From Allobosea sp. AAP35 (lineage in GTDB: Bacteria > Pseudomonadota > Alphaproteobacteria > Rhizobiales > Beijerinckiaceae), in NCBI RefSeq assembly GCF_001295925.1, contig NZ_LJHQ01000024.1, positions 1 to 64,000 of the forward strand: a stretch of DNA of 64,000 nt, given 5' to 3'. The translations under genes and the position numbers were made by a program. This document shows, piece after piece, positions 1 to 36,309 of the stretch (position 1 is the stretch's first letter; each line of letters starts with the position of its first letter). A model generated the notes under the pieces. That model did no database searches, was not told the origin of the DNA, and saw only the letters and a list, made by a program, of their open reading frames with translations.

Positions 1-48
1 CCCACCCCGACCCTCCCCACCGCAAGCGGGGGGAGGGGGAAGGGGGAG
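1..48. repeat. REP-like palindrome, copy A (inside cobG)
   Basis: The core CCCCACCGCAAGCGGGG (15-31) is flanked by C-rich and G-rich arms that can pair with each other. The same 17-base core occurs twice in cobN (2437-2453, opposite orientation, and 2531-2547). It is read in frame through cobG as PPPPACGGEG. The window edge may cut off a second, inverted copy. Confidence 0.7.
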
Positions 49-372
49 CTGCGCCAGCGGCGAAACCAGCGTCAGCCTTTGCGGCCCGTCGCCCTCATGC
101 TCGTCGACCAGCCGCTCGGCCAGCAGCGTCGCGACCAGTTCCGGATGGCTTTGCGCCGTGACCCCACGCAACTGCATGTTGCCGCGCGCCGAGATCTCGA
201 TCAGCCCGTTGCCGTGCTGGCCCGCCAGCGTCGCGATGCGCCGCAATTGCGCCGGGGTTAGACAGGCGCCAGGCGGATGCAGCCGCACCAGCCAGCCATC
301 GCCGGTCTCCATCGGCTTGAGCGTGCTCGGGCACCAGCCGCGCCGCAGGGCTTGGGGGGAGGGCGCGTTCAT
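1..372 (-). CDS. cobG: Precorrin-3B synthase CobG, N-terminal part (cut by window start)
   Basis: CobG is the iron-sulfur mono-oxygenase that converts precorrin-3A to precorrin-3B in aerobic cobalamin synthesis. Only the first 124 codons lie in the window; the frame is still open at base 1. The N-terminus reads MNAPSPQALRRGWCPSTLKP and continues with GDGWLVRLHPP and ISARGNMQLRG, which is the ferredoxin-like half domain of the nitrite/sulfite reductase family as found in CobG. The start codon (370-372) overlaps the stop of cobN by ATGA, so the two are translationally coupled. From about residue 109 the protein runs into a proline/glycine-rich stretch (PLPPPPACGGEG) encoded by a palindromic repeat that is also inserted in cobN, so the family match breaks there. 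Identification comes from the N-terminus and context; the iron-sulfur cysteines lie outside the window. Confidence 0.82.
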   Translation of the reverse strand, partial: MNAPSPQALRRGWCPSTLKPMETGDGWLVRLHPPGACLTPAQLRRIATLAGQHGNGLIEISARGNMQLRGVTAQSHPELVATLLAERLVDEHEGDGPQRLTLVSPLAQLPLPPPPACGGEGRGG

Positions 373-3300
373 TCCGCCGCCTCCGCCGCAGGCCTGCCCG
401 CCAGAAACGGCCCCACCGAATTGCGCCGGCTCGTCCACAGGCCGCGCCGCGCGGCATCCGCCAGCCGCGACCGGATCGCCTCGGCGGCCGGCGCATTGGC
501 GGCCTCGATCGCGGTCCAGACAGTCGTATCGGCGCACCAGGCCTGGAAAACCGCGTCGAACAGCCCGTCGGAGACCGCATCCGTGCTCGCCGCAAAGACG
601 AAGAGCGTGTCGATTGCCTCCGCCAGTTCCGCCGCGCCGCGCCAGCCATGGGCGAGATGGGACGCGATCCAGCGCGGATGCGTCAGCCGGCCATGGACGA
701 TGCGGGTGATGTCCTCGGCCAGCGTGCGGGCTTTCGGCGCCTCGGGGTTGGAGGAATCGAGGCTGTAGAGCGCGGGTGCGGCCCCGAGCGACTGCGCCGC
801 GGCCGCAAGCCCGCCGATGACGTCGGCAGCACTAGAGGCTTCGAGGATATCGCGCCCGGCGGTGTCGCTGACATGCACGAAGGCATCGGCCGCGCGGATT
901 CGGGCGGAGAAACTGTCATCGGGATGGGCAGCACCCTCCGGCCCGCCATAGGCGTGGCTGGAGGCGGCGAGATAGGCGGCGCCCAGTTCGTCGCGGCTCG
1001 TCCAGTCGCCGTCGAGCGCCCGGTCGGCGACGGCCGCGCCATAGCGGCCCGGCGCTGCCCCGAAGACGCGCGCGCCGGCTTCGCCACGACGCCGCGCGGC
1101 GGCGGGCTCGTTACAGTCGTCCGGTTCGTCGAGCAGCGCGACGGCGCGCGCAGCCGCATCGAGCAGCGCGACTTGGCTCGGAAACGTGCCGCGGAAGGCG
1201 CCCGAGATACGCACCGTCACATCGACGCGCGGATGCTCCAGCTTGGGTTGCGGCGTGATCGCAAAGCCGGTGACGCGCGTCGAGGCATCGTCCCAGAGCG
1301 GCACGACGCCCATCAGCGCCAGCGCATGGGCGATGTCCTCGCCGCCCGAGCGCAGCGTCGGCGACGCCCAGAGATCCATCACGATCCGGCGCGGCGGCTC
1401 GCCCTCATCCTGCAAATGGCGCGCGATGACGGCCTGCGCCGCCAGCGCTCCCAGCCGTGCCGCCGCTCGCGTGGGAATTGCGCGCGGGTCGAGCGTCGAG
1501 AGGTTGCGCCCGGTCGGCAGCACGTCGGGCCGGCCACGATGCGGCGAGCCGGCGGGCCCGGGAGCCACGAAGTGCCCGTCGAGCGCGCGCAGCAGCCCCT
1601 CGCGCTCGCTTTCCGCCGAGACCGGGTCGAGCGCGGACTGTCCAAAGACATGCAGCCCGTCGCGGAAGGGCAGTTCGGCGATGTCGCAAAGATGCGCGTC
1701 GAGCCGCGTCAGCGCTTCACTCATCGGCTGATCGGCCGTGACGCCGCAAGCCGCGGCCAACCCGCTGGCCTCCGCCCGCGCCCGGATCTCGCTGGCGACG
1801 ATGTCGGCCCGGCGCGGATCGAGCACCTGTGCCTGGCTGAACTCCTCGACGAGGTCGCGCAGCAGCGCGGTCTCGCCTGAAGCCCCGATCTGTGCCAGCG
1901 GCGGCGGCAGATGGCCGAGCGTCATCGCCGAAAGCCGCCGCTTGGCCGGCGCGGCCTCGCCGGGGTCATCGACGACGTAAGGATAGATGACCGGCAGGCC
2001 GTGCGTGACCAGCCGCGGCCAGCAGGACGACGACAGCGCCACCGCCTTGCCCGGCAGCCATTCGGTCGTGCCATGGGTGCCGAGATGGATCAGCGCGTCG
2101 ATGCCCGCCGTCTCCCGCAGGGCGCGGTAGAAGGCGAGATAGCCATGGGCCGGCGGCGCGTCGGGGTCATGATAGCGCGCCTTCCGGTCGGGCGTCGCAT
2201 CGCGCGGCGGCTGCAGCGCGATGGTGAGGGCACCATTGCGGACGATGCGGAAGCGGAAGGCGCCATCGCTGACGGTCGGATCGGATTCCGGCGTGCCATG
2301 GGCGGCGATGAGGGCCTCGCGCGCGTCGTCGGGGATGGTGGCAAGCCAGGCGCGATAAGCGTCGAGGGGGAGCGAGAGAGCGGCTGGCCCGGTGGTGAGG
2401 GAGGTCATCAGAGCCGCGCCGGCCTTTTCTCCCTCCCCCCGCTTGCGGTGGGGAGGGCCGGGGTGAGGGGGCATTCCGCTTGGCTCAACGGTCAAGGCCT
2501 CTCCTGCACGCCCCCCCATCACTAACCCTTCCCCACCGCAAGCGGGGGGAAGGGGATGGCGTAAGGCTTCAACCGCTCCACCGGAAACGGCGTACCCCGC
2601 CGCCGCCAGCAGCCCCTGGATCACGCCGACGCTCGCCGGCGTGTCGAGCCCCACCGCGAAGCCCGCCCGCCCGCCGCGCGCGGGGTAATCCGACATTACC
2701 AGCGCCAGCCGGCGCGCGGCGACCGGCTTGGACGCCAGCGCGGTCCAGCTGGTCACGAGATCGGCGAGCGCTGCAACGCCCTCCGGATCGGGCACCAGCC
2801 GGCGGGTCGCCAGCCCGGTCGCAGGGTCGGTGATCTCGGCCTTGAAGGCGACGGGGATCGTGCCCAGCCGCCCGTCGAACTCCGGCAGCGCGACTTGCAT
2901 CGCGAGATCCACCGCCGAGAGCCCCCGCGCCGAGGCCGCCCAGGCCTCGCGGGTGCTGCCGACCGGCATGGCCTGAAAGACGGGGCAGTCCGCCGCGTCG
3001 AGCACGAAATCGGCGCCCTCGCGCGCCGAGAACGCGGTCGTGGTGACGATGGCCGCCGGCTGCCGCGTCGCGATCAGTGCCGCGAGCTCGGCGGTGACGG
3101 CGGGGTCCTTCAGGCTGGTCAAGGCGAGGATCAGCGGGGCCGTGCCGCGTGCAGCGAGCGCGGCGGCCAGCGCTTCGCCCATCGCCGTGTCGCCGGCGCT
3201 GACGGCCGAGCGGTAGACCAGGATCGGCACGAAGGACTTGTCGGGCAAGGCGGCGAGCGCCTCGCGCCAGGGCATCGGCGCGGCGTTGGCGCCCAGCGCA

Positions 3301-3830
3301 AACAGCGGCGGGAGGGAGAGGGGCGCAAGCTCGGAGGGCGGCCGGTCGCGGCCGAGATACCCCCCCGCCATCGCCAGCAGCCGGCGCATGTTCTCCGCCC
3401 CGCCGCCGGCATGGAAATAGCTCAGGATCGCCCGCGCGCAGGCGGGCGGCACGGTGCCGTACTCCGCCAGCCGGGCATCGTCGCGGTCGTCGCCCGGCAG
3501 CACGGCGAGTGCGATGCCCTCGCGTCGGCAAGTTTCGCTCAACTGCTCGACGCCGTAGCGCCAGTAATCCAGCCCGCCGAGGCAGCGCAACAGCACGAAG
3601 CGGCTCCTGGCGACCGTCTTCTCGATCAGAAGATCGACCGAGAGCGGGTGCCGTAGCCGCCGCAGCGAGACGAGGCGGACGCTCAGGGCACTGTCTCCGG
3701 CCGCCGCCGCCAGCGCGGAGAGATCGCTGTCGGCGAAGGAGAGCACGACCACGTCTCCCGGCGGCAGGCCAAGATCGACGGCGTCTTCGCCATCGTCGAG
3801 CCTGATCTCGCTGGTCGGGAGCAGATGCAT
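369..3830 (-). CDS. cobN: Cobaltochelatase subunit CobN
   Basis: CobN is the large subunit of the ATP-dependent cobaltochelatase CobNST, which inserts Co2+ into hydrogenobyrinic acid a,c-diamide. The 1153-residue protein begins MHLLPTSEIRLDDGEDAVDL, as CobN proteins do, and carries the family signature HLGTHGTTEWLPGK in its centre. An AAAGGA ribosome-binding site lies about 8 bases before the ATG. cobS and cobT are not in the window. The gene follows cobW by 27 bases and its TGA overlaps the cobG ATG. Odd: residues about 424-468 (PLPPACGGEG ... PPHPGPPHRKRGEG) are low-complexity, do not look like CobN, and are encoded by two inverted copies of a palindromic repeat. Family-like sequence resumes afterwards at LSLPLDAYRAWLATIP. 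The frame stays open, so the gene is probably functional with an extra loop of about 50 residues. Confidence 0.95.
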   Translation of the reverse strand: MHLLPTSEIRLDDGEDAVDLGLPPGDVVVLSFADSDLSALAAAAGDSALSVRLVSLRRLRHPLSVDLLIEKTVARSRFVLLRCLGGLDYWRYGVEQLSETCRREGIALAVLPGDDRDDARLAEYGTVPPACARAILSYFHAGGGAENMRRLLAMAGGYLGRDRPPSELAPLSLPPLFALGANAAPMPWREALAALPDKSFVPILVYRSAVSAGDTAMGEALAAALAARGTAPLILALTSLKDPAVTAELAALIATRQPAAIVTTTAFSAREGADFVLDAADCPVFQAMPVGSTREAWAASARGLSAVDLAMQVALPEFDGRLGTIPVAFKAEITDPATGLATRRLVPDPEGVAALADLVTSWTALASKPVAARRLALVMSDYPARGGRAGFAVGLDTPASVGVIQGLLAAAGYAVSGGAVEALRHPLPPACGGEGLVMGGRAGEALTVEPSGMPPHPGPPHRKRGEGEKAGAALMTSLTTGPAALSLPLDAYRAWLATIPDDAREALIAAHGTPESDPTVSDGAFRFRIVRNGALTIALQPPRDATPDRKARYHDPDAPPAHGYLAFYRALRETAGIDALIHLGTHGTTEWLPGKAVALSSSCWPRLVTHGLPVIYPYVVDDPGEAAPAKRRLSAMTLGHLPPPLAQIGASGETALLRDLVEEFSQAQVLDPRRADIVASEIRARAEASGLAAACGVTADQPMSEALTRLDAHLCDIAELPFRDGLHVFGQSALDPVSAESEREGLLRALDGHFVAPGPAGSPHRGRPDVLPTGRNLSTLDPRAIPTRAAARLGALAAQAVIARHLQDEGEPPRRIVMDLWASPTLRSGGEDIAHALALMGVVPLWDDASTRVTGFAITPQPKLEHPRVDVTVRISGAFRGTFPSQVALLDAAARAVALLDEPDDCNEPAAARRRGEAGARVFGAAPGRYGAAVADRALDGDWTSRDELGAAYLAASSHAYGGPEGAAHPDDSFSARIRAADAFVHVSDTAGRDILEASSAADVIGGLAAAAQSLGAAPALYSLDSSNPEAPKARTLAEDITRIVHGRLTHPRWIASHLAHGWRGAAELAEAIDTLFVFAASTDAVSDGLFDAVFQAWCADTTVWTAIEAANAPAAEAIRSRLADAARRGLWTSRRNSVGPFLAGRPAAEAAE
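2424..2560. repeat. Inverted doublet of REP-like palindromes inside cobN (copies B and C)
   Basis: Two copies of the CCCCACCGCAAGCGGGG core lie in opposite orientation (2437-2453 and 2531-2547), separated by about 77 bases. Each copy is itself a hairpin, and the pair can form a larger cruciform. This layout matches what is known as a REPIN (REP doublet). The cobN frame is open through both copies: the first is read as PLPPACGGEG and the second as PPHPGPPHRKRGEG. A third copy is in cobG at 1-48. That the doublet was inserted after the gene arose is an inference from the break in CobN-like sequence. Confidence 0.75.
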
Positions 3831-6262: not shown

Positions 6263-6319
6263 GACGATCATTAGCCATGTGCGGGAGGCTGTGCAATGCA
6301 GTTGCTTCGCTTCCACCCC

Positions 6320-6426
6320 AGCCCTCATCCTGAGGAGCCGCGAAGCGGCGTCTCGAAGGATGCTCCAGCGCACTCTGGAACATCCTTCGAGACGCGGACT
6401 GTCGTCCGCTCCTCAGGATGAGGGCT
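6320..6426. repeat. Intergenic palindromic element with CCTCATCCTGAGGAG arms
   Basis: Perfect 18-base terminal inverted repeats (6320-6337 and 6409-6426) enclose inner arms (CTCGAAGGATG ... CATCCTTCGAG). The whole can fold into one long hairpin of about 107 bases. Similar CTGAGGAG/CTCCTCAG elements are, from memory, common between genes in Rhizobiales genomes. Its right end contains an ATG (6418) in frame with cobU. Confidence 0.75.
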
Positions 6427-11422: not shown

Positions 11423-11444
11423 CCTCTTCACGATCGCCCCTATG

Positions 11445-11556
11445 CGCCGTCATCCTGGGCGGCCCTAGGCCGACCGGGATCCATCATAGGGCAGCGACGG
11501 TGCTCGATGATGGATCCCGGCCTGCGCCGCTGCGCGGCTCGGCCAGGATGACGGCG
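11445..11556. repeat. Palindromic repeat with GGGATCCATCAT arms, copy 1
   Basis: Perfect outer arms of 14 bases (CGCCGTCATCCTGG, 11445-11458, and its complement 11543-11556) enclose inner arms GGGATCCATCAT / ATGATGGATCCC. The second copy, at 36181-36309, has the same arms and the same GGCCTGCGCCGC-type inner sequence. It lies 23 bases after the dehydrogenase stop and could act as an mRNA 3' end for it. Confidence 0.8.
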
Positions 11557-36180: not shown

Positions 36181-36309
36181 CGGAAACACCCCGTCATCCT
36201 GGGCAAGCGAAGCGCGGCCCGGGATCCATCGTAGAGCAGCGACATTGCCCTATGATGGATCCCGGCCTGCGCCGCTTCGCGGCTTGTCCAGGATGACGCG
36301 GTGTTTCCG
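36181..36309. repeat. Palindromic repeat with GGGATCCATC arms, copy 2
   Basis: Outer arms of 22 bases (36181-36202 and 36288-36309, one mismatch; core CGTCATCCTGG) enclose GGGATCCATCGTAG and CTATGATGGATCCC. It is the same family as 11445-11556. It lies between the ABC ATPase stop and the GH31 start, within what is otherwise one operon, so the hairpin could lower or uncouple GH31 expression. Confidence 0.8.

Follow-up and report, generated by a model that had tools for sequence, protein, structure and literature searches.

Palindromic repeats of several families lie in frame in the same CobN loops across the Bosea clade

The cobaltochelatase subunit CobN of Allobosea sp. AAP35 contains an inverted doublet of palindromic repeats that lies in frame within the protein, and in relatives from the Bosea clade the same loop is filled with unrelated repeats. 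At least one of three CobN loops is filled with a repeat in 29 of the 37 clade rows compared, and none of them is filled in the remaining 8. Several families share a site, changes of state along the CobN tree are many, and repeats of this kind are scarce in the other genes sampled. The preliminary description of this DNA, which had reported the doublet, was correct and understated: the filling of the same loop by unrelated repeats in relatives was invisible to it.

The doublet in cobN

The window, i.e. the whole stretch of 64,000 nucleotides that was analysed, contains the following features.

1..372, minus strand: cobG-like open reading frame, 5' part, cut by the contig end
1..43, plus strand: another copy of the element, with its core at 15-31; the contig end truncates it, and it is read in frame in the cobG-like open reading frame
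369..3830, minus strand: cobN, cobaltochelatase subunit CobN, 1153 residues, host of the insert (NF008973 equivalog; PF02514)
2424..2560, no strand assigned: inverted palindromic doublet inside cobN (labelled by hand as family a)
2428..2457, minus strand: hairpin arm 1 with the 17-bp core 2437-2453
2527..2556, plus strand: hairpin arm 2 with the 17-bp core 2531-2547
2430..2579, minus strand: coding insert at CobN site 3, residues 418-467, placed by alignment with the outgroup rows (pLDDT below 50 at 418-465)
3333..3338, minus strand: CobN site 2, which follows residue 165; it has no repeat in the window, and 16 of the 37 clade rows hold family g here
3696..3701, minus strand: CobN site 1, which follows residue 44; it has no repeat in the window, and 12 of the 37 clade rows hold family f or a here
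6314-6426: copy of family e between called genes, just upstream of the called cobU start (6448)
11442-11556: copy of family c (CGTC-like) between called genes
36193-36298: copy of family c (CGTC-like) between called genes

The open reading frame at 369-3830 scores 1429.4 bits against the NF008973 equivalog model, which has a cut-off of 1235, the match running over 1-1140. The sequence is thus CobN-like on both sides of the insert, as had been claimed, and the doublet is an insertion, in an open frame, into a real gene with homology on either side of it. A broken cobN was considered and is ruled out by the pN/pS ratios outside the insert sites, which are 0.17-0.23 for the window against three relatives (0.17 against L069) and 0.22 for other species.

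The two arms of the doublet are 30 nt each, are 90% complementary and are spaced 69 nt apart, with their cores in opposite orientation. The element is therefore an inverted doublet of short palindromes, as in REP and REPIN sequences. The folding energy of the strand is -104.1 kcal/mol as compared with a shuffle mean of -76.9 (z -5.7), a value that beats all 200 shuffles. Both peptides named in the preliminary description, PLPPACGGEG and PPHPGPPHRKRGEG, are present in the CobN translation, the frame of which is uninterrupted, and the two opposed copies that it had reported in cobN are located by the cores and the arms. The insert that it had placed at residues 424-468 is real, with slightly different limits: against the outgroup rows it spans residues 418-467.

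The 17-bp core has 27 matches in the 4.46-Mb genome, 20 of them exact and 7 with one mismatch, as compared with none for the reversed core used as a control. This genome-wide count, which had been proposed as a check, together with the folding score, shows that the repeat is not due to chance. Many of the core copies lie near contig ends, as is expected of a repeat that breaks an assembly.

The fold of the AlphaFold model of CobN (mean pLDDT 78.2, pTM 0.78, based on a 20-row alignment) matches that of the solved CobN 7c6o with a TM of 0.74. Residues 418-465 are modelled with pLDDT below 50 between the predicted helices 398-410 and 464-480; the low values are partly expected, since few of the 20 alignment rows contain this stretch, and shorter stretches elsewhere in CobN are likewise below 50. 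Sites 1 and 2 are also predicted to fall between secondary structure elements. The alignment to two solved CobN relatives is interrupted at query 416-417/487-488, i.e. at the insert, and site 3 is thus a variable stretch of the family. When CobN is aligned with that of related genera, as the preliminary description had advised, the site 3 loop is short in the outgroup rows L101, L102, L103, L107, L113 and L116. An extragenic type of repeat has therefore become a loop of about 50 residues, as had been supposed: the stretch is missing from these six rows and is modelled with low pLDDT.

Copies in the window and in its genome

The window contains five repeat copies, of which three are intergenic according to our own gene caller and two lie in cobN and in the cobG-like open reading frame. 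The latter is probably cobG, as judged from its position next to cobN and its likeness to the cobG translations of relatives; its homologue in L071 matches PF03460 and PF01077. All four other internal doublets of the genome that were examined (contigs C20, C46, C64 and C65) lie between genes by the same caller.

Among the sequences compared, the cobN doublet is most similar to the intergenic C20 copy from its own genome, with 92% identity in 128 columns (many contig-end copies being cut and hence not fully comparable). The likeness to the cobN copy of L072 is 81%. The window doublet thus most likely comes from the pool of its own genome.

Three insertion sites across the Bosea clade

For the CobN alignment, 45 loci were used together with the window, and L098, L100 and L110, which are partial, were left out. 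With the rows of Microvirga, Salinarimonas, Methylobacterium and Phreatobacter as the reference, the CobN proteins of the Bosea clade have three main insertion sites, which follow window residues 44, 165 and 417. Of the rows in the tree, 37 belong to the Bosea clade: 28 bear the title Bosea, 7 are placed within the clade despite another title, and the last two are the window and the complete relative G010. Dropped before the tree were L092 (a metagenome bin with an in-frame stop), L107, L113 and L116, as well as L040 and L041, which are identical to L075 and L072, respectively, over the 3400 nt compared.

The 61 CobN inserts of at least 12 residues were listed with their fold energies, which stand without shuffle controls. 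They were assigned by hand to the families a, b, c (with its variant d), e, f and g and their remnants, whereas four of the inserts were judged by eye not to be repeats. When clustered automatically, the 61 inserts form four large groups and some small ones, in agreement with the hand labels except that a and f are joined (through L090 and L097) and that b and e are joined (through a single 27-nt match in L089).

Four of these six families, a, b, c and e, occur at the loop that is filled in the window. Site 3 is occupied in 27 of the 37 rows, by family a in 2, b in 6, c or d in 13 (one-hairpin remnants included) and e in 6. One of the 12 repeats at site 1, that of L073, was read from the DNA upstream of the cut alignment. 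In the six-member clade that includes the window (support 98), site 3 holds family a in the window, b in L069, c in L070, L106 and L073, and e in L075. With the insert columns removed, the state must have changed on the CobN tree at least 11 times at site 1, 12 times at site 2 and 18 times at site 3; the tree is a quick one with support below 80 on 12 of its 37 inner branches, and the counts of changes could be lower.

Eroded and mixed states are present as well. Eroded in-frame remnants are found at site 2 in L105 and L117, and single hairpins at site 3 in L081, L117 and L121. At site 1 of L090 and L097, family a lies beside remnants of family f. Site 3 of L089 (L089:7384-7506) combines family b with a 27-nt piece similar to family e, a possible trace of replacement. 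Some arrangements are of a different kind: at site 2 of L093 (L093:6535-6777) both arms of the family g hairpin carry an extra similar hairpin, a palindromic doublet forms a C-terminal tail of about 60 residues in the CobN of G010 (L042:4759-4938), and six copies similar to family b follow each other at regular spacing in L086:1317-2347. Beyond the Bosea clade, 5 of 39 CobN proteins (L101, L112, L114, L118 and L130, from Microvirga, Methylobacterium and Alsobacter) have inserts that look like repeats by eye, at other positions.

Location of the copies genome-wide

The census of G010, a complete one-contig relative, covered 2.0 of 5.47 Mb in 100 stretches with 1953 genes by our own caller, 88% of the DNA being coding. 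Of its 91 copies, 81 are intergenic, 4 lie at gene edges and 6 are inside genes (more than 90 nt in). The six are two in cobN, one in cobG, two in glyS and one near the start of a further gene, which looks like a penicillin-binding protein gene by eye and the start of which may be wrong; of the four at gene edges, one forms the end of cobN. The window's genome was sampled over 0.4 of its 4.46 Mb and has 20 copies there, of which 19 are intergenic and 1 is at an edge. The repeats thus occur in many copies that are mostly extragenic, 100 of the 111 sampled over all families being intergenic, where the families are those defined from CobN inserts and other families could differ. An earlier, smaller census gave 41 intergenic, 2 edge and 2 inside copies in G010, and 21 intergenic and 1 edge copies in the window's genome.

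The 59 cobN copies found by searching with the inserts are circular evidence, as the queries are themselves cobN inserts, and a family-blind scan of the cob cluster served as the control. It found inserts of at least 15 residues in 33 cases in cobN (n=40), in 7 in cobG (n=39) and in none of 11 neighbouring genes of the cluster (29-38 loci each); the scan overlooks inserts common to many rows as well as the cobG insert of L104. Within what was sampled, cobN is exceptional. Four of the seven cobG inserts are repeats at one site, that of L095 is near or before the start, and those of L093 and L098 are not repeats by eye. The single cobG site is filled by family a in L073, L104 and G010, by b in L069, by e in L082 and by an f-like repeat in L083. 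A copy in the cobK span of L069 was dropped as an in-gene case, since the translation runs into the apparent start of the next gene.

The glyS gene, which was identified in G010 by PF02092, holds inserts judged by eye to be repeats in 4 of the 16 genomes of the genus. In glyS of L154:14419-16977 (minus strand), two in-frame palindromic doublets occupy two loops.

Constraints on the inserted sequences

In 18 non-independent pairs from other species that share insert family and site, the inserts have a pN/pS of 1.07, as compared with 0.22 for the remaining CobN. By this measure the protein is conserved, and the inserts seem to be peptide without constraint on its amino acids. In the same pairs the silent divergence is 0.14 in the inserts and 0.36 in the host gene. 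Positions that are paired in a third copy differ by 10.8% and unpaired ones by 22.4% (overlapping comparisons). The low silent divergence and the low variation of paired positions could each be due to a more recent insertion, to conversion by copies elsewhere in the genome or to a constraint on the nucleic acid. Among 160 changed base pairs, again from overlapping comparisons, 117 are broken; pairing is preserved in 33 where one side has changed and in 10 where both have. Since most of the changed pairs are broken when the structure is taken from a third copy, selection for the hairpin is not claimed; a first version of the test (9.3% and 29.0%) was biased, its structure having been taken from the compared sequences.

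The suggestion in the preliminary description that the repeat was selected for readable frames found no support, as in no family do the extragenic copies have significantly more open frames than their dinucleotide shuffles. The copies tested were 6 of family a, 5 of b, 41 of c, 8 of e, 20 of f, 3 mixed f and a, and 4 of g, numbers that are small for a, b and g. Family a outside genes has 4.17 open frames as compared with 3.90 in the shuffles, 61 of 200 of which are equal or higher, and families c and e have fewer than their shuffles. High G+C makes open frames common. Family a is rich in G+C, and in its three copies of 110 nt or more there are 4.0 open frames as compared with 2.77 in repeat-free intergenic DNA; the family is therefore readable by composition, a point that counts against rejecting frame selection.

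A RAYT transposase was sought with the PF01797 profile, which has no match in the window's genome or in G010; among 16 genomes of the genus Bosea it matches in 2, and 5 of 14 control genomes are positive. RAYT was therefore set aside as the mobiliser.

Origin and turnover of the inserts

The observations are probably best explained by palindromic elements that land widely, are cleared from most genes by selection and are collected, eroded and replaced in a few tolerant loops. Bosea genomes would carry several families of short palindromic repeats, usually as inverted doublets of about 70-140 bp. Copies would arise genome-wide, and the surviving ones would be mostly intergenic because selection removes most of those in genes. 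An extra 20-60 residues may be tolerated in three CobN loops, one CobG loop and two GlyS loops, and owing to this tolerance insertions that keep the frame would survive there. The inserted peptide would be a nearly neutral filler that is shortened by in-frame deletion and replaced by other families over time. The window doublet would then be a copy from the family a pool of its own genome in the third CobN loop. We infer that the elements moved by transposition, that an enzyme was responsible and that CobN still works.

Several points count against this explanation. The transposase profile has no match in either of the two census genomes, and a target site duplication is not established for the inserts. 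Neutral decay predicts neither the difference in silent divergence nor that between paired and unpaired positions. As flexible loops are widespread, tolerance alone cannot explain the choice of CobN, CobG and GlyS. The census families are derived from CobN, and they were counted in the sampled parts of two genomes.

Other explanations have to be weighed against these data. An ordinary conserved low-complexity linker of CobN, with no repeat at all, would fit the interrupted alignment to the solved relatives and the variable stretch of the family, but it is refuted by the multicopy nature of the insert DNA and by the short loop of the outgroup rows. The hairpins might instead be kept in the cobN and cobG messages to regulate translation or stability of the B12 message, the palindromic families being interchangeable. 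The concentration of repeats in two adjacent B12 genes, the lower divergence of paired positions and the silent divergence of the inserts below that of the host all speak for such a role. It is nevertheless improbable, because most changed pairs are broken and 10 of the 160 are kept by changes on both sides, 8 of the 37 rows have no repeat, and the same pattern occurs in glyS, which is not a B12 gene. Somewhat less improbable, though still quite unlikely, is that the variation arose largely by exchange of cobN alleles among Bosea species and not by many separate insertions. The families at a site are indeed scattered over a CobN tree with weakly supported branches, but several families still require separate origins, the junctions differ among species, and the window copy is closest, among those compared, to an intergenic copy of its own genome.

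Targeted insertion, in which the elements favour existing palindromes or the loop site so that each loop is refilled, is unlikely as well, if less so. The mixtures of a with f remnants at site 1 and of b with an e-like piece in L089, and the reuse of the same loop by unrelated families, would be expected from it. On the other hand, no common sequence is seen at the three CobN sites (by eye, without statistics), and 81 of the 91 copies of the G010 sample are intergenic. A wider version of this idea, which may be put forward tentatively, is that a few loops in CobN, CobG and GlyS have harboured mobile palindromes over long times: a lengthened loop would become a preferred landing site that is refilled repeatedly, with the families alternating and the hairpins partly maintained as nucleic acid. 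Wide landing followed by clearance from most genes is the explanation that we favour.

The CobN loop constitutes a natural experiment: mobile DNA has repeatedly rewritten a single loop of an enzyme, and its empty, filled, mixed and eroded states coexist in relatives. Exchange of the loops makes the entry of palindromes into proteins, and the relevance of the peptide, directly testable. Palindromic repeats in annotated proteins are not always spurious open reading frames.

Comparison with known systems

Titles and abstract openings of the papers retrieved contain nothing on palindromic repeats in cobN or in Bosea, and the main text of one REP survey does not name cobN (PMC3733652), the list of target open reading frames being its separate Additional file 3. 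The in-frame insertion of REPs is already known; that one gene is saturated with repeats throughout a genus, and that unrelated families succeed each other in a single loop, was not found described in the literature searched.

REPINs are inverted doublets of palindromes that occur in many, mostly extragenic copies and are accompanied by RAYT transposases. The preliminary description had called the window element REPIN-like. This holds for the inverted doublet, the copy number and the mostly extragenic position; it does not hold for the transposase, as neither the window's genome nor G010 matches the RAYT profile.

The survey of GTAG and CGTC REPs by Di Nocera et al. 2013 describes in its main text REPs inside genes, including double insertions in uvrA, and suggests flexible loops for the in-gene REPs (PMC3733652). 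In recB of Xanthomonas, two species have different REPs near one site (PMC3733652, main text). Families b, c and f of the relatives resemble the CGTC-tagged REPs described there (PMC3733652), as by eye they start with CGTC, have stems that begin with AT and a CCA tail, and form inverted dimers. Unlike the CGTC- and GTAG-tagged REPs, the window element has neither terminal tag by eye.

The Rickettsia palindromic elements (RPE) are short palindromic repeats found in frame in unrelated protein genes (PMC10969869). The CobN inserts are similar to them in being palindromic repeats inserted in frame in a protein gene. Unlike the RPE, the repeats described here belong to several families that occupy the same loops of a single protein in a whole genus, and their other sampled copies are mostly intergenic.
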